Assembly: GCA_934229785.1 (NCBI GenBank)
Contig: CAKQEA010000002.1
Span: 62,001-126,000 of the forward strand
Length of the DNA: 64,000 nt
Direction of reading: 5' to 3'
DNA from: an uncultured Anaeroplasmataceae bacterium
GTDB taxonomy: Bacteria > Bacillota_I > Bacilli_A > Acholeplasmatales > Anaeroplasmataceae
A model generated the notes under the pieces. That model searched no databases, was not told the origin of the DNA, and worked only from the letters and a program-made list of their open reading frames with translations. The number at the start of each line of letters is the position of its first letter. The first letter of the stretch is position 1. The translations under genes were made by a program, and so were the position numbers. Positions 49,780 to 56,924 of this stretch are shown one piece after another.

Positions 49780-50697
49780 TCATTTAAAAAGATTTAAAAA
49801 ATTATTAGGAACATTAGCCTCAATTGTAATTAAATTATGAGTGATTGGATGCTCAAAAACAAGCTTTGAAGCATGAAGTCCTAGTCTTTTTAAAGGATTT
49901 TTATTATAACCATACTTCTCATCACCAACTATAGGATGGCCTAAATCTTGCATATGAACACGTATTTGATTTTTTCTTCCAGTATCAATTTCAACCTTAA
50001 GTAAGGAATATTCATTATTTTCTTTAATAACCTGATAATGGGTAATAGCCTTTTGACCTTTGGGGTCTTCAGTTGAATATACTAAATTATTTTGGTTTTC
50101 CTTTAAATATGAAATAATAGTATCAGACTTCTTTTCCATTCTTCCTTCAACTACCGCATAATATTCTCTTACCTTAACATAATCATTCCAGTTTAGCTTC
50201 ATCATTGAATGAATTTTAACATTTTTAGCAAAAACTAAAACACCTGAGGTTTCCTTATCAATTCTATGCAAGATAAATGGTCTTAATGCCTTACTTCTTG
50301 CTTGAAGGTATGATAGCATATAAGCATAAGCACATTCTCTATCCTTATCACTTTCAACTGATAAAAGTCCATACGGCTTATCAATAGCAATAAAATCATC
50401 ATCCTCATAAATTATATTAATTGAATATACTCTTTTAGAAGCCTTAGGCATTCTTTTTTCTTCAGTATGAATAGGACGCTTTGAAATTTTTATTTCATCA
50501 TCCTTAGCAAGCATAAAGTTGTACTGACTAACAACACTACCATTAACTAGTACCTGATGATTTGTTAACAAATTTTTAACATTATTTCTTGATGTCTTAC
50601 ACTTGTTTAACAAAAACGTTAAAAGCTCATCACTTCTATTTACTTTATAAATTGCTGTTATTTCAAGCTTTTCTTTTTCATCAAAATTTCTTCTCAT
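49780..50697 (-). CDS. RluA-family 23S rRNA pseudouridine synthase
   Basis: 305 residues. S4-like N-terminal domain (about 20-75) and the synthase core with catalytic Asp in HRIDKETSGVLVFAKN near 146-161 and the late RKNQIRVHMQDLGHPIVGD element. It isomerises uridines in rRNA; RluD/RluC-type specificity cannot be told apart here. Start codon directly abuts the glpK stop (TAAATG). Last gene of the long operon. Confidence 0.94.
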   Translation of the reverse strand: MRRNFDEKEKLEITAIYKVNRSDELLTFLLNKCKTSRNNVKNLLTNHQVLVNGSVVSQYNFMLAKDDEIKISKRPIHTEEKRMPKASKRVYSINIIYEDDDFIAIDKPYGLLSVESDKDRECAYAYMLSYLQARSKALRPFILHRIDKETSGVLVFAKNVKIHSMMKLNWNDYVKVREYYAVVEGRMEKKSDTIISYLKENQNNLVYSTEDPKGQKAITHYQVIKENNEYSLLKVEIDTGRKNQIRVHMQDLGHPIVGDEKYGYNKNPLKRLGLHASKLVFEHPITHNLITIEANVPNNFLNLFK

Positions 50698-52173
50698 TTA
50701 AAACTCCATACAAGCATTAACTGCTTTTTTCCATCTATCATATTTTTCTTTTTCATCTTTGTTTATTTTAGGAACATATAATTTGCTATTTTTATAATGC
50801 TTCTTTATATCCATTAAATTATTAAACAAACCCTTATTTAATCCTACTAAATAAAATACTCCAAGTGAGGTAGCTTCACTAGTTGAAATTGTCTTTATTT
50901 GACTATACATCACATCAGCCTGAACCTGCATTAATTTAGAATTTAATGAAGCACCACCATCAACACTTATATCCTTTAATTCAAGCTTGGTATCCTCAAG
51001 CATAGATATCATAACATCCTTATTCAAATAAGCAACTCCCTCTATTGTTGCCCAGGCTATATTTTCCTTTGATGTTCCACGAGTTAAGCCAAAAATTGCC
51101 CCCTTACATTCAGAATTCCAATATGGCGCACCTAAGCCTGTTAAAGCAGGGATGAAAACTACACCATTTGAATTTTCCACAGCAAACTCAGAATCAGATA
51201 AATCCTTAACAAGCTCTAAGTTATCTCTAATAAATTGGAAGGCACTGCCTGCAACAAACACGCTACCCTCTAAAGCATAGCATATTTCATCATCAATCGC
51301 ATAAGCAATTGTACTTAATAGACCATTTTTAGAATTATAAATCTTCTTACCAGTATTCATAAGCATGAATGATCCTGTTCCATACGTAATCTTAAGCATT
51401 CCCTCTTCAAAACATGTATGACCAATAAGTGATGACTCTTGATCTCCAATCAATCCACATACCTCTAAATTACATATCTCTTTTATTCTTATCTCACTAA
51501 TATTACCAATTGTAGCATTTGATGATACAACCTTAGGAAGAGTATTTCTATTAATTTTAAACAATTTAAGAAGCTCATCATCATAATCTAGAGTGTGGAT
51601 ATTAAAAAGCATGGTTCTTGAGGCATTAGTATAATCTGTAACATGAATTCCACCACAAAGCTTATAAATTAGCCATGAATCTATAGTACCAAATAATAAA
51701 TTTCCTTCATCCATAAGCTCTTTAGCCCCGCTAACATTATCAATTATCCACTTCATTTTACTAGCACTAAAGTAAGGATTAATTAATAACCCCGTTTTTT
51801 CTTTTATCATTTTTTCATATCCAGAAACCTTAAGCTTTTCACAAATTTCATTTGTTTGAGTTGATTGCCACACAATTGCCTTATAAATAGGCTGTCCAGT
51901 TTTTTTATTCCAAGCAACAGTTGTTTCTCTTTGATTTGTAATTCCTACTCCAATAATATCAGAATAATCAATATTTACCTCATATAAGGCTGTTGTTATA
52001 AGAAAAACTACATCCTCATATATTTCTAAAGCATCATGCAAAACATAATTAGGGTATGGATAATATTGTTTAAATGCTTTAACATTCTTATAAATTATAT
52101 TTCCTCTTTCATCAAAAATAATTACTCTTGATGAGGTTGTTCCTTGGTCAATTGTAATAACATATTTACTCAT
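50698..52173 (-). CDS. glpK: Glycerol kinase
   Basis: 491 residues from the ATG at 52173 (ribosome site GGAGG inside the preceding gene). FGGY kinase motifs: DQGTTSSRVIIFD near 8-20, TNQRETTVAWNK near 76, and VDGGASLNSKLMQ near 395. It phosphorylates glycerol to glycerol-3-phosphate. Neither glpF nor glpD lies beside it; it sits instead in a mixed operon and overlaps the poly(Cys-Ala) lipoprotein gene by 8 nt. Confidence 0.95.
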   Translation of the reverse strand: MSKYVITIDQGTTSSRVIIFDERGNIIYKNVKAFKQYYPYPNYVLHDALEIYEDVVFLITTALYEVNIDYSDIIGVGITNQRETTVAWNKKTGQPIYKAIVWQSTQTNEICEKLKVSGYEKMIKEKTGLLINPYFSASKMKWIIDNVSGAKELMDEGNLLFGTIDSWLIYKLCGGIHVTDYTNASRTMLFNIHTLDYDDELLKLFKINRNTLPKVVSSNATIGNISEIRIKEICNLEVCGLIGDQESSLIGHTCFEEGMLKITYGTGSFMLMNTGKKIYNSKNGLLSTIAYAIDDEICYALEGSVFVAGSAFQFIRDNLELVKDLSDSEFAVENSNGVVFIPALTGLGAPYWNSECKGAIFGLTRGTSKENIAWATIEGVAYLNKDVMISMLEDTKLELKDISVDGGASLNSKLMQVQADVMYSQIKTISTSEATSLGVFYLVGLNKGLFNNLMDIKKHYKNSKLYVPKINKDEKEKYDRWKKAVNACMEF

Positions 52174-53125
52174 CCCTAGCCTCCATTTTTTTAACAAACT
52201 CCACGCTTATTTCAAAATTATAAAAATCCTTACGACTACAACCAGCTCTACCTCCGCCAGCACAAGCACAGGCACACGCACACGCACAGCTATGAGATGT
52301 ATGTGAGCTTGATGGTGGATTTATAGCCTTACCATTTTTACTTCTTCCACTATTATAAAATGTACAATAGTACCACATAGGATATCTTGAGAAATTTTCT
52401 CCAGAAAATCCTCTATAGGCCTCATAGCTATTATTCTTTGTCTTTATAACAACAATAATAAAAATAACAATAAATAAAACCACAAACATTGATATACTAG
52501 CCACTGCTATAATAATTCCTAGTTTATGATCCTTTGTTTCAATTAAATTTGGATATAATGCCTTATCATATGAAACTTTAACATTAATTTTTTCACCTTT
52601 TTTTAATGACTTATCCCACAATAAATAATCATCTATAACACTACTAGCATTAGAATCTTTTACGTTATTTTTATTCCATAAAACCTGTAGTTTTTTTACC
52701 TCAATATCATCAAACCATCCAGGAGTAAAATCATAGCTTATAATTTCATCATTAAATGTATATATTCTCAACAAATGAAATTTAAAATCAAATGTAACAA
52801 TATCATTCTTATAAGCCTTTTCTTTTAAATCGCAACGAATAAAGTCACCATCGTCATCAAATAAATAAGCATTTAAAACATCATTAGATAAATTTTTTAA
52901 ATCACCAATATATTTATTAGGAATACCAATCTTAACCCATTCTAATGGTTCTGTATCATCTAAAACTAACCATTTAATTTCATAACGTAAATCAAGTGTT
53001 CCATCATCACGCTGATCAACAGTTATCTTATAGCTTTCTATTTCATCTAAAGTCTTATCCTCATCACAGGAGCTTAGTAGAAAAAAAGAAAAAAAACAAA
53101 CAATTATAAATAAAAGCTTTTTCAT
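52166..53125 (-). CDS. Lipoprotein with cytosolic poly(Cys-Ala) tail, probable radical SAM substrate
   Basis: 319 residues from the ATG at 53125, which overlaps the TGA of the radical SAM gene (ATGA). Signal and lipobox LLSSC at Cys 20; ectodomain (about 25-195) with a DUF2207-like opening (IESYKITVDQRDDGTLDL); one membrane helix at about 201-228 followed by basic residues, so the C-terminus is inside. The tail carries SCACACACACAGGGRAGCSR near 278-297: five Cys-Ala units, three Gly, RAGC. Cys codons are all TGT but Ala codons vary, so the repeat is selected rather than DNA slippage. The overlap with the radical SAM gene suggests the tail is its substrate. Function of the mature protein unknown. 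Confidence 0.8.
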   Translation of the reverse strand: MKKLLFIIVCFFSFFLLSSCDEDKTLDEIESYKITVDQRDDGTLDLRYEIKWLVLDDTEPLEWVKIGIPNKYIGDLKNLSNDVLNAYLFDDDGDFIRCDLKEKAYKNDIVTFDFKFHLLRIYTFNDEIISYDFTPGWFDDIEVKKLQVLWNKNNVKDSNASSVIDDYLLWDKSLKKGEKINVKVSYDKALYPNLIETKDHKLGIIIAVASISMFVVLFIVIFIIVVIKTKNNSYEAYRGFSGENFSRYPMWYYCTFYNSGRSKNGKAINPPSSSHTSHSCACACACACAGGGRAGCSRKDFYNFEISVEFVKKMEARDE

Positions 53126-54474
53126 TTTTTCACCTCTTTTAGCTGACATAGTCCATGTGAAGTTGCGCTTATTTTTCTAATTTTTTTACACCTTTTACTA
53201 TTCCAAATATTTTTAAAGCTCTTATTTAAAATATTACCTAAGCCATCCTCAAACAACCAGCTTTGACATGGTAGAACCTCTCCATTAGGTGCAATTGCCA
53301 TATTAGACATACATGCTCCACATGATGGTATAATCATATGCATTTTTAAAAGTAAATCATCCTTAATCCAGCCAGGAGAGGTGAATGCTATCTCTAAATT
53401 TTTTGTTTTAGCATAGTCATATGCCAACCTCAAGCTTTTATAAATTTCGTTCTCATTAAGCTTAGTAACCTCTGAAATAGCATTTTTAGCATTTCCTGAT
53501 GGAATTAAGCCCGAGGTAGAAAAATACCTAACACCTAGGCTTTCTGCAAATTTTATAGTATTAACATAATCTTTATTTAAGCTGCAAAGTGGGGTATTAA
53601 TACTTACATCTAATCCAGCCTCCAAAGCATTTTTAATTCCTTCAACTGTTTCCTTGAAATGATTAGTCCCAACTAAAGTATTATGAATATCCTCATCAAA
53701 TGAATATAATGTAATTTGAACAGAATCTAAGCTTGCAGCATATAAATTTTTACATAACTCCTTTGTAAGTAATATACCATTAGTGTTTAAACGAGTAACA
53801 AACCACTTAGCATGATTAACAAGTGCAACCAAATCATTTCTTTTAGTTGGTTCACCACCAGTAAAAGTTAAAGCTGGTATTCTTGCTGTATAACATTTAT
53901 CAATAATTTTAAACCAATCCTCTGTTTTTAATTCCTCTACATTGGCCATTTTTTCATTGGCTGCATAACAATGTAAGCACCTTTGATTACAATTCCAGCA
54001 TCCATTTTTCTCCATTGCTGAAATCATCAAATCCATTCGATGAGGGGAATACATAAATTTTGAATATTTAGCTAATGTAGTATAACCGATTTCAACCTTT
54101 GGTTCCTTTCCTAAAGCAATATCAACTAATGTTTCAACAATATCCTTTAAATCAGATTTAATCATTTTATCCTTTGCCTCAGGATAAATCTTTTTAACAT
54201 TTAAAACAACCTTAGAAATAATTGTATCTAAATAGCTATCATCTATTTCATTACCATCTATCATATTAATGGTTAAAATAAATTCTCTTAATAATACTGC
54301 CCACGTAGTTTGAAGAGAAATTAATGAATAACCATTTATTATCGCCACAAAAGGAACACCAACAGCTAGCTTCTTTGGTGGAACAAGATGAATCCTAACA
54401 ACACCTGGGCCCTTAGGATTTATTGTAGTATGAACTACATTATTACATTCCTTCAAATATTTTTTTAAATTCAT
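53122..54474 (-). CDS. Radical SAM enzyme with C-terminal SPASM-like cysteines, probable peptide maturase
   Basis: 450 residues. An N-terminal domain of about 150 residues of unknown fold precedes the radical SAM core: CNQRCLHC near 161-168 (CxxxCxxC), FTGGEPTKR near 200, then a strand series ending near 350. The C-terminal region has Cys residues in IIPSCGACMSNMAIAPNGEV near 383-402, VLPCQSW and a final GLC, with LGNILNKSFKNIW, which is how SPASM/twitch auxiliary-cluster domains end. SPASM enzymes modify peptides and proteins, often linking Cys. Directly coupled to the poly(Cys-Ala) gene and downstream of Fe-S proteins that could donate electrons. Confidence 0.85.
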   Translation of the reverse strand: MNLKKYLKECNNVVHTTINPKGPGVVRIHLVPPKKLAVGVPFVAIINGYSLISLQTTWAVLLREFILTINMIDGNEIDDSYLDTIISKVVLNVKKIYPEAKDKMIKSDLKDIVETLVDIALGKEPKVEIGYTTLAKYSKFMYSPHRMDLMISAMEKNGCWNCNQRCLHCYAANEKMANVEELKTEDWFKIIDKCYTARIPALTFTGGEPTKRNDLVALVNHAKWFVTRLNTNGILLTKELCKNLYAASLDSVQITLYSFDEDIHNTLVGTNHFKETVEGIKNALEAGLDVSINTPLCSLNKDYVNTIKFAESLGVRYFSTSGLIPSGNAKNAISEVTKLNENEIYKSLRLAYDYAKTKNLEIAFTSPGWIKDDLLLKMHMIIPSCGACMSNMAIAPNGEVLPCQSWLFEDGLGNILNKSFKNIWNSKRCKKIRKISATSHGLCQLKEVKK

Positions 54475-54481
54475 ATATACC

Positions 54482-54844
54482 TCACCAAGATAATTTGCTT
54501 AAATTATACAAAACATCATTATAGCTCATATCATCATTAAAAATATCAATAAATTTTTTATATTCGGAAATTTTCTTATCTTTTTTACTGTCATCTAAAC
54601 TATTTAAATAAAAATCATTAGTTCTTCCACATGGATAAGCACATATAATACAATCAGGTAATAATTCTTTCTTTAGTTTAGCTAAATAATCAATATAGTA
54701 AGACAAATTATTTTTATTTTTCAAAGCTCTACATACCTCAAAAACAATAGGCTCAAGTTTTGAAATATCGCCTTCAGCTGTAACTCCATTAATTATTGCA
54801 ATAAGCTTAGCAAGTACAGTATTTTCTAAATCATCTAATAACAT
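54482..54844 (-). CDS. Small helical protein with CxxCxxxC motif
   Basis: 120 residues, all-helical. The centre holds DCIICAYPCGRTNDF near 79-93, a short cysteine cluster that could bind an Fe-S cluster and recalls the N-terminal helical part of hybrid-cluster (hydroxylamine reductase-like) proteins; that is a weak resemblance. It overlaps the 4Fe-4S gene by 10 nt and is 8 nt before the radical SAM gene, so it is probably part of one redox unit. Confidence 0.65.
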   Translation of the reverse strand: MLLDDLENTVLAKLIAIINGVTAEGDISKLEPIVFEVCRALKNKNNLSYYIDYLAKLKKELLPDCIICAYPCGRTNDFYLNSLDDSKKDKKISEYKKFIDIFNDDMSYNDVLYNLSKLSW

Positions 54845-55473
54845 TTAACAATCTCTCCCTTTATAGAAATAATTCTTACAGATGAGTGGATATCCTTACC
54901 ACTTTCTAAAATTGCATTTTTCATTTGTATTTCAAGTCCACCGCAGCAAGGAACCTCCATACGAACAAGTGTGATGCTCTTAATATTATTATTTCTTAAT
55001 ATTTCTGTTAATTTTATTTGATAATTAACACCATCAAGCTTAGGACAAGCAATAAATGTAATTCTTTTTTCCATAAAATCCTTATGAAAATTTTGATAAG
55101 CATAAGCTGCACAGCTTGCCGATAATAATATATGAGCTCCATCATAAGCCTCACTTGTTACAGGTACAAGCTTTAGCTGACATGGCCAAAAGCCTAATCC
55201 TGATCTATTAAAATTTAGCGTTTTGTTTAAACCACTACTCTTTTTATTTTCTAATACCAATTCTTCATTATAGGAATCGGCCTCTCTCATCACAATTTTA
55301 ATTGCATCCTTAGGACAATGTGGTAAGCAATCTCCTAATCCATCGCAATAATCATCCTTAATCAATTTAGCTTTACCATCAACAATCGTAATTGCTCCTT
55401 CATGACACGCCTTAGCACATAGTCCACAGCCATTACATTTTTCACTATCTATTTCAACAATTTTACGTATCAT
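54835..55473 (-). CDS. 4Fe-4S dicluster ferredoxin-like protein
   Basis: 212 residues. Two ferredoxin clusters at the start: CNGCGLCAKACHEGAI near 13-28 and a second CDGLGDCLPHCPKDAI near 43-58. The rest (about 95-212) is an alpha/beta domain with cysteines in FWPCQLKLVPV, CAAYAY, ACPKLDG and VPCCGGLE, so more metal or redox sites are possible. In clostridia this family travels with hydroxylamine reductase-type genes. Here it precedes the radical SAM gene and is a candidate electron donor. Confidence 0.85.
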   Translation of the reverse strand: MIRKIVEIDSEKCNGCGLCAKACHEGAITIVDGKAKLIKDDYCDGLGDCLPHCPKDAIKIVMREADSYNEELVLENKKSSGLNKTLNFNRSGLGFWPCQLKLVPVTSEAYDGAHILLSASCAAYAYQNFHKDFMEKRITFIACPKLDGVNYQIKLTEILRNNNIKSITLVRMEVPCCGGLEIQMKNAILESGKDIHSSVRIISIKGEIVKCY

Positions 55474-55481
55474 ATTCTTCC

Positions 55482-56780
55482 CTACCTATTATCATATTCA
55501 TCATTTTTATGATCATTTTCACCTTTAAAGCTAATATTTGAATCAACAAATAAAACATCAGCATATCTAATAAATCCATATTCCTTAGCTTTAATATTAA
55601 CATTTTTAAAGATAATATCATGCATGTATGAATCACTAAAGCCTTCTATGTTAAACGCTCTAGAAATACCATAATAATCATCTTTGTATGTCGATACAAC
55701 ATTATTAACAAAAATATTAGATACTTCCGTGTTCACTCCATCAGTTTTCATACATAAGGTTTTAATAGTTTTTGTTATTTCCCCATTATAATCATTAGGT
55801 AGGGTACAAATACTATAGTTCGGATTCCAATTTAAAAACCAATGAAATGCATATTTAACATTTATCATTTTGATATTATCAACATAAACATTTTTTATAT
55901 AACCTTTTCTAGGTAATGATGACTTAATTCTAAAGCCACAATCAGTCCCATCAAACACTAAATTCTTCAACCATACATTATAAATACCACCTGATACCTC
56001 ACTACCAATCGTAACACCAAAGCCCTCTTTAAATTTACAATCTACTATGCTTATATCATGACATGGTCTATTGACTCTTATTCCATCATAATCTCTACCT
56101 GATTTAATACTAATTGAATCATCATTTGTTCGTAATACACAATTTTTAACAATTATATTACTTGAAGAATCAATATCTATTCCATCAGTGGATGGAGCAC
56201 ATAAATTTGAAGAATCTATATGAATATTATCAACAATAATATTATCACTGTACAAAATATGAACATTCCAAAAGCCAGATTCAAATGAGGTAATATCCTT
56301 AATTTCAATATTACTAGAATTAGAAATAACTAAATTTCTAGGTCTCATACAATCATAGTCACATAAAAAGCGTAATCCTTTAGCATCATATTCCTTACGC
56401 ATTCCACCATGCATATCAATTCCCCAATATTTACTCCACCAATAAGGTCCATTTCCATTAATAATACCTTTACCAGAAATTGTAACATTATGGCAATTAT
56501 TACAATTTAAAATTCCCGGATACCATTTCATTTCAACACCAGCAATACGTGTATCAACTAACACATAATCACACTCATTAACAGAGGCAATTAATTCTGC
56601 ATTATTATCAATAATCAAATTAATATTACTCTTTAAAAATAATCCTGAAACTAAATATTTACCACTACTTATAACTAAGGTATCATCATTATGTAAAAAA
56701 TCTATTATTTTTTGAATATCTTTCGTAACATTTGTTTTACCATCATTTGCTACATTATATTTTTTTATATCTATAATCAT
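55482..56780 (-). CDS. GH28-family pectinolytic glycosidase
   Basis: 432 residues from the ATG at 56780 (ribosome site GAGGT); a longer frame from 56849 has no ribosome site. Right-handed beta helix with the family acids: PSTDGIDIDSS near 199 and RTNDDSISIKSG near 220. The next family landmark (GHG) appears as GFGVTIGSEVSGG near 253, without the usual His, as in some exo-type members; GFRIKSS follows near 280. No signal peptide, so a cytosolic oligogalacturonide- or rhamnogalacturonide-degrading role fits. First gene of the long operon down to 49780. Confidence 0.88.
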   Translation of the reverse strand: MIIDIKKYNVANDGKTNVTKDIQKIIDFLHNDDTLVISSGKYLVSGLFLKSNINLIIDNNAELIASVNECDYVLVDTRIAGVEMKWYPGILNCNNCHNVTISGKGIINGNGPYWWSKYWGIDMHGGMRKEYDAKGLRFLCDYDCMRPRNLVISNSSNIEIKDITSFESGFWNVHILYSDNIIVDNIHIDSSNLCAPSTDGIDIDSSSNIIVKNCVLRTNDDSISIKSGRDYDGIRVNRPCHDISIVDCKFKEGFGVTIGSEVSGGIYNVWLKNLVFDGTDCGFRIKSSLPRKGYIKNVYVDNIKMINVKYAFHWFLNWNPNYSICTLPNDYNGEITKTIKTLCMKTDGVNTEVSNIFVNNVVSTYKDDYYGISRAFNIEGFSDSYMHDIIFKNVNIKAKEYGFIRYADVLFVDSNISFKGENDHKNDEYDNR

Positions 56781-56842
56781 TTTAAACCTCAAAAGAAAAA
56801 GTACAACATTTATCTTATTATACTTTATTCTAAAGGAAAAAT

Positions 56843-56895
56843 AAAGCACTCAAAAAGAGAAACCTTAACCTTAAGGCTTCACTTAAAAGTGCTTT
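56843..56895 (-). terminator. Terminator of the LOG-family gene
   Basis: Outer stem AAAGCACT/AGTGCTTT enclosing an inner CCTTAA/TTAAGG stem; T-rich on both sides, so it may work in both directions. It lies between the LOG gene and the GH28 gene on the minus strand. Confidence 0.7.
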
Positions 56896-56924
56896 TTTAA
56901 TCCTAATAACATTACAAAATATTG

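Follow-up and report, generated by a model that had tools for sequence, protein, structure and literature searches.

The sporulation killing factor sactisynthase SkfB (6efn), which acts on a small peptide antibiotic precursor, combines a recognition element (RRE) for ribosomally synthesised and post-translationally modified peptides (RiPPs), a radical S-adenosylmethionine (SAM) core and a Twitch domain with one auxiliary cluster. Ranthipeptide or SCIFF maturases (CteB, Tte1186, PapB) are SPASM radical SAM enzymes, with an RRE in CteB, whose substrates are Cys-rich at the C-terminus. The radical SAM enzyme QhpD installs several thioethers in a protein, where they remain (PMC8172795), and membrane proteins of family TIGR04222, which end in a Cys-rich stretch of low complexity, are found next to a peptide-modifying enzyme of the MNIO (DUF692) family (PMC12452194). 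Here we describe a locus that resembles each of them in part. In a 64,000-nucleotide stretch of DNA from an uncultured Anaeroplasmataceae bacterium (contig CAKQEA010000002.1, positions 62,001 to 126,000; hereafter the window), a radical SAM enzyme adjoins a single-pass membrane protein that ends in a Cys-Ala ladder. The enzyme is probably the dedicated maturase of its neighbour, with thioether bridges in the ladder as the likeliest outcome.

Both genes lie on the minus strand and overlap; the overlap was noticed in a preliminary description of this DNA:

53122..53125, minus strand: ATGA (53125-53122) shared by the enzyme stop and the membrane-protein start (sequence)
53122..54474, minus strand: radical SAM/Twitch (SPASM) enzyme, 450 residues (Pfam, model, alignment)
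52166..53125, minus strand: tail-bearing single-pass membrane protein, 319 residues (sequence, model, homologues)

The preliminary description took the two proteins for enzyme and substrate and proposed a search for the tail beside radical SAM genes in other genomes. Scanning public genomes with an alignment of the tail protein gave at least 64 loci, relatives being encoded by 65 of 592 pattern stretches. With neighbourhood matches (enzyme, ferredoxin and others) counted above 60 bits, an enzyme homologue lies within the flanks of the tail gene at 60 of the 64 loci. Tail proteins that mostly lack a radical SAM neighbour are thus not what is found, and the pairing is strongly supported. At two loci (L052, L054) the sequence starts from a contig edge that falls within or at the tail gene, and the flanks contain no enzyme; at another (L064), the start of an enzyme gene follows 14 bases after the tail gene. 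The enzyme lies upstream of the tail gene at almost every Bacillota locus as well as at L055, L057 and L060; at L046, L056, L058, L059, L061, L062 and L063 it lies downstream. At three loci (L009, L011, L024), a single enzyme is flanked by two divergent tail proteins, which share 55-58% identity. In Bacillota, Bathyarchaeota, Thermoproteota and Chloroflexota, most of the cases read have the two genes side by side, as do single loci of Krumholzibacteria and Aminicenantes. Of 65 neighbourhoods, at most 8 share any third gene family beside the pair, and 6 contain what looks by eye like an ABC-type ATPase.

Co-occurrence was counted in four taxon samples, together 856 genomes, in which the tail is found in 130, the enzyme in 134 and both in 125. 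In the order of L003's genome (160 genomes), 10 have the tail and 9 the enzyme (E ≤ 1e-20); all 9 are shared and adjacent, and the tenth tail gene begins at base 177 of its contig. In the 246 genomes of the order to which L005's genome belongs, tail and enzyme (E ≤ 1e-60) occur in the same 5, always adjacent. Among 201 genomes of the class of L058 (Bathyarchaeota), 55 have the tail, 55 the enzyme and 53 both (Fisher p 1.5e-43), and in 51 pairs the genes are neighbours on the same strand, no more than 200 bp apart. Enzyme rows, partial ones included, were kept here from 45% identity upwards, and rows of 27-36% were dropped as other radical SAM proteins. For the class of L063 (Chloroflexota, 249 genomes; enzyme E ≤ 1e-50) the numbers are 60, 65 and 58. 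One tail-only Chloroflexota genome, G731, has an adjacent radical SAM frame on reading; another, G657, encodes a DUF2207 protein of the ordinary kind, whose Gly tail is free of Cys, and has no enzyme match at E ≤ 1e-50. Starting from the enzyme, a Cys tail is present in a neighbouring frame at all of the best 30 archaeal loci (L087-L116) and at 17 of the best 30 Chloroflexota loci (L160-L189). Enzyme and tail protein are a near-obligate pair.

The membrane protein is organised as follows:

53066..53125, minus strand: signal peptide with lipobox-like LSSC, residues 1-20 (sequence, hydropathy)
52532..53053, minus strand: extracytoplasmic beta-domain, residues 25-198 (structure model; weak fold matches)
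52436..52519, minus strand: transmembrane helix, residues 203-230 (hydropathy; modelled helix 201-230)
52238..52288, minus strand: Cys-Ala ladder CACACACACAGGGRAGC, residues 280-296 (282-296 identical in 65/65)
52220..52237, minus strand: conserved SRKDFY after the ladder, residues 297-302 (120 homologues)

The predicted cytosolic tail reads CACACACACAGGGRAGCSRKDF, and the five Cys-Ala units, three Gly and RAGC reported earlier are all there, as HSCACACACACAGGGRAGCSRKDFY. A database search (E ≤ 1e-3) returned 3058 relatives of the tail protein; in the 120 that were listed, to which the following counts apply, CACACAGGGRAGC occurs without exception, and all 457 CxC spacers are Ala. The conserved motif extends past the ladder as S-x-K-D-F (K in 120, F in 118, D in 115 and S in 112 of 120). 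In an alignment of 65 sequences that includes the window protein, residues 282-296 never vary, against a mean identity to the window protein of about 0.45 (45-47%) in the ectodomain, 0.20 in the helix, 0.29 in the linker and 0.19 in the final extension. Single invariant residues are also scattered through the ectodomain (D27, W52, G67, N70, G136 and others). In Bacillota, no block other than the ladder is the same in every sequence, and the helix, the linker and the C-terminal extension drift. The Cys codons of the tail are all TGT and the five ladder Ala codons are GCG, GCG, GCC, GCT and GCT, a mixture that rules out DNA slippage, as had been argued before. The DNA of the tail has about 60% G+C in a window of 28% G+C. 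Judged from the sequences, a chance origin of the tail pattern is excluded.

A signal peptide plus a single further helix would place the tail in the cytosol, which makes the cytosolic location claimed initially probable by topology. Zinc ribbons between helix and tail fit this location: an archaeal relative (L057:7968-9431) has such a match above the Pfam cutoff, and a Lachnospiraceae relative (L009:5122-6381) has one in the same segment, just under it. The name lipoprotein, used in the preliminary description, suits the window protein with its LSSC but not the family: a simple pattern finds a lipobox-like motif in 56 of 120 relatives and in 0 of 120 archaeal ones, so lipid anchoring is not general. 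In the structure model, the ladder is unstructured and of low confidence, within a disordered C-terminal part. The modelled ectodomain shows weak fold matches (TM about 0.4) to the beta-domains of ribophorin I (oligosaccharyltransferase) and M1 aminopeptidase, and a sequence search of the PDB at E ≤ 1 gave nothing meaningful for it. Pfam Ribophorin_I matches one archaeal relative, L062, below threshold (E 0.079).

The tail varies by lineage. In Bacillota it is (CA)n-GGG-RAGC-SxKDF, with SSG in place of GGG in some Lachnospiraceae. Archaeal tails have ten Cys in 118 of 120 listed proteins and mostly a CACACAGGGVG ending, and the CxC spacer in these proteins is Ala 702 times and Val 134 times. 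Chloroflexota proteins have CACACACAGCACACAGGGR and similar strings at the extreme C-terminal end, and Krumholzibacteria (L055) and Aminicenantes (L060) have GGGGAGCSRK followed by a CPxC segment. The tail module is also found on proteins with different cytosolic parts. A second tail type, with (CHSA)n Cys-His repeats, occurs on Chloroflexota membrane proteins directly beside enzyme relatives; it was read in L220 (1516-3228), L222, L223, L224 and L226, and assigned by script label in L221. The enzymes beside CHSA tails are 33-35% identical to the L063 enzyme. On an enzyme tree (125 rows with re-fetched copies, 118 different enzymes), tail types cluster, with 14 label changes against a shuffled mean of 58.4 by a quick method, although a label merely carried along by linkage would cluster too. 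The label for absent tails on this tree includes two loci whose tails the script missed (L006, L015) and loci whose flanks stop short of the tail gene.

Three regions of the enzyme bear on its function:

54115..54435, minus strand: predicted RRE-like (PqqD-like) N-terminal peptide-binding domain, residues about 14-120 (model)
53968..53991, minus strand: CX3CX2C SAM-cluster motif, C162, C166 and C169 (invariant, 54-sequence alignment)
53146..53322, minus strand: reduced SPASM (Twitch-like) auxiliary-cluster region, invariant C385, C403 and C443 (54-sequence alignment)

Pfam matches to radical SAM (7.4e-20) and SPASM (4.3e-10), together with the invariant Cys motifs, bear out the radical SAM/SPASM identity given in the preliminary description. 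Archaeal, Chloroflexota and Krumholzibacteria rows shown in the alignment have a longer SPASM, which ends in CxxCxxxxxCxGGC. The N-terminus of the enzyme model consists of strands at 14-54 followed by three helices at 56-120. The closest solved structures over the full length are the RiPP maturases SkfB, which is the best match, and SuiB; by first and last residue only, the structure alignments span 26-447 (SkfB) and 14-450 (SuiB). Among four predicted-active relatives scanned, two score above the Pfam PqqD cutoff (L220, 36.6; L063, 25.5). By model and motifs, the window enzyme has the predicted RRE, the SAM motif and the SPASM/Twitch region of RRE-containing radical SAM RiPP maturases. Some Chloroflexota also encode a degenerate paralogue without CX3CX2C (L063:11199-12365, L227:2966-4285), which adjoins the active enzyme or tail genes and is possibly a non-catalytic partner.

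By analogy with the enzyme family, from which the order of reaction is taken, maturation would probably proceed as follows. The RRE-like domain would hold part of the membrane-protein substrate while a SAM-derived radical takes hydrogen from residues of the ladder, oxidising the cytosolic Cys-Ala repeat. A neighbouring Cys sulfur would then close onto the carbon radical, aided by the auxiliary Fe-S cluster of the Twitch/SPASM region. The likeliest result is a set of intra-tail thioethers that join Cys sulfur to a carbon of Ala or Gly, in the backbone or the side chain, related to those of SkfB, CteB or QhpD. What computation shows is the pairing, the conservation and the modelled fold of the enzyme; that the tail is the substrate and remains attached is inferred, and thioether chemistry in the ladder is conjecture by analogy. 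The Cys-Ala spacing is chemically reasonable, since sactisynthases are reported to accept Ala as cross-link partner (PMC8188230). As neither a protease nor an exporter is widely conserved around the pair, the modified tail would probably remain part of the membrane protein, much as the QhpD product stays in its enzyme (PMC8172795), and the uncut tail would be a cross-linked, perhaps metal- or redox-active, cytosolic segment. A metal or redox role is a guess from the Cys density and the Cys-His variant. We put forward only tentatively, as the less likely outcome, that these two genes form a bacterial and archaeal system in which a multiply thioether-bridged cytosolic ladder, coupled to a sensing domain on the outside, works as a built-in metal or redox element, i.e., a protein-embedded RiPP-like cofactor with a CHSA version in Chloroflexota.

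Several observations weigh against a thioether maturase dedicated to the tail. The modification is a prediction from genes and models, and metal could also be bound by a Cys ladder that is left unmodified. Pfam PqqD does not match the window enzyme, whose RRE is visible in the model only, and among the relatives scanned PqqD is below the cutoff in L058 and absent in L061. The four taxon samples were each centred on a pair-bearing genome and consist of genomes of unstated completeness. In the genome of L010, which carries the tail, no enzyme homologue goes below E 4.6e-4. The remaining 13 of the best 30 Chloroflexota enzyme loci have no tail within flanks of about 1.5 kb or less, and 7 of the 65 enzyme-bearing Chloroflexota genomes (G618, G619, G637, G741, G770, G805, G838) give no match to the tail profile. 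In some Chloroflexota the tail is elsewhere in the genome, with two tail proteins a few kb downstream in G787 and a tail on another contig in G842. Since Chloroflexota enzymes occur away from tails and in 7 genomes without a tail match, the family there may act from a distance or on other substrates as well. Some Chloroflexota enzyme relatives without an adjacent tail (L179, L180, L231) are followed by a methyltransferase-like gene, named by eye.

An enzyme acting on the tail might also make something other than a thioether: a Calpha-formylglycine, an epimerised residue, a C-C bond, or an oxidised or decarboxylated Cys. This is unlikely, given that matches reaching the N-terminal domain are mainly SkfB and SuiB and that the substrate is Cys-dense with fixed spacing. 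Sulfatases carry a CxPxR-like formylglycine motif; in the tails, the Arg has a different spacing and is missing from nearly all archaeal members, and we rejected a sulfatase-type reaction for this reason. It is less probable still that the tail is an unmodified metal or Fe-S ladder and that the enzyme acts elsewhere in the protein, or needs the tail only for docking or as a cluster ligand. The density of Cys, the His of the CHSA repeats, the zinc ribbons of some relatives and the invariant ectodomain residues are all in keeping with it, as is the CteB auxiliary cluster, which is described as binding a substrate Cys (PMC6231123). However, the only fully identical block within Bacillota is the ladder itself, amid a drifting helix, linker and extension, and the module sits on proteins that differ in their cytosolic parts.

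The probability that the genes are neighbours by chance or operon inheritance only, or that the tail is a low-complexity expansion, is negligible. Low-complexity tails are common, that of the DUF2207 protein in G657 being one, but chance neighbourhood is contradicted by co-occurrence in all four samples and adjacency in most cases read, and low complexity by the mixed Ala codons and the invariance. Cargo of phages or plasmids was considered as well and shows no sign: neither protein has a PHROGs match at E ≤ 1e-5, the enzyme has none among plasmid sequences at E ≤ 1e-40, and no phage DNA near-identical to 50000-56900 was found.

On the minus strand of the window, the pair is preceded by genes for a GH28 protein (55482-56849), a dicluster 4Fe-4S protein (54835-55473) and a 120-residue protein with CIICAYPCGR (54482-54844), and glycerol kinase is the next gene after the tail protein. 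The 4Fe-4S and 120-residue proteins (54482-55473) precede the enzyme in an apparent operon; they are probably local, because the 64 loci contain no counterpart of the smaller (E ≤ 1e-5) or of the 4Fe-4S protein (above 60 bits).

We found no description of this pair in the open-access papers, Pfam or NCBIfam as searched here. In the open-access papers searched, the tail string CACACACAGGGRAGC is absent, as is CACACACAG within a word together with radical SAM, and we found nothing joining radical SAM with DUF2207 and nothing on TIGR04133. A survey of radical SAM clusters mentions, in the portion available, Asp-Cys repeats and nothing like Cys-Ala (PMC9062424). The preliminary description spoke of a new kind of modified protein. 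That wording is too strong, because the protein-internal radical SAM thioethers of QhpD and the TIGR04222/MNIO pairs are already in print. The side-by-side pair in distant bacteria and archaea suggests an undescribed cross-linking of a membrane-protein tail. From gut Bacillota to Bathyarchaeota the core of the tail is the same and is nearly always accompanied by a single enzyme family, which indicates a conserved function, one for which these searches gave no name. Were the tail modified, radical SAM peptide chemistry would reach beyond released natural products to lasting components of membrane proteins, in a compact two-gene system whose substrate, enzyme and likely site are already defined. 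Lineage variation in part of the tail would supply natural mutants from which to read the rules of the enzyme.

Compared with known systems, the membrane protein resembles DUF2207 proteins, whose layout is a signal peptide, an ectodomain, a membrane helix and a low-complexity C-terminal tail, as seen in L225. Pfam DUF2207 (PF09972/PF20990) has no match in the window protein (E ≤ 1), in six relatives (E ≤ 0.1) or in three more (E ≤ 0.01), and the DUF2207 protein of G657 differs in its Cys-free tail. The locus is unlike a classical RiPP natural-product cluster, in which a protease removes the leader of a short precursor peptide and an exporter is present, as the candidate substrate is a 319-residue membrane protein and there is no widely conserved third gene. 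The enzyme is built like SkfB but scores 67.6 bits against an NCBIfam cutoff of 300 for the SkfB family (TIGR04403), and the SkfB auxiliary ligands are given as CX33CXC (PMC6231123), as opposed to C385, C403 and C443 here. Ranthipeptide substrates are small free peptides without a membrane domain, with Cys joined to Asp or Thr acceptors in the examples described (PMC8172795). QhpD, whose model is not among the best 25 of 59 NCBIfam matches of the window enzyme, is described as bridging Cys to Asp or Glu in the gamma subunit of quinohemoprotein amine dehydrogenase, from a multi-gene operon (PMC8172795), whereas the candidate here is the cytosolic end of a membrane protein, made of Cys-Ala repeats and encoded with its enzyme by two genes only. 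TIGR04222/MNIO is the closest printed analogue of the gene arrangement. TIGR04222 itself has no match in the window membrane protein at E ≤ 1; its partner belongs to another enzyme class, its tail is predicted to be periplasmic, and its pairing is looser, with 490 of 1372 TIGR04222 genomes reported to be without MNIO (PMC12452194). The system described here is set apart from TIGR04222/MNIO by its enzyme class, the side of the membrane, the invariance of the tail and the economy of two genes.

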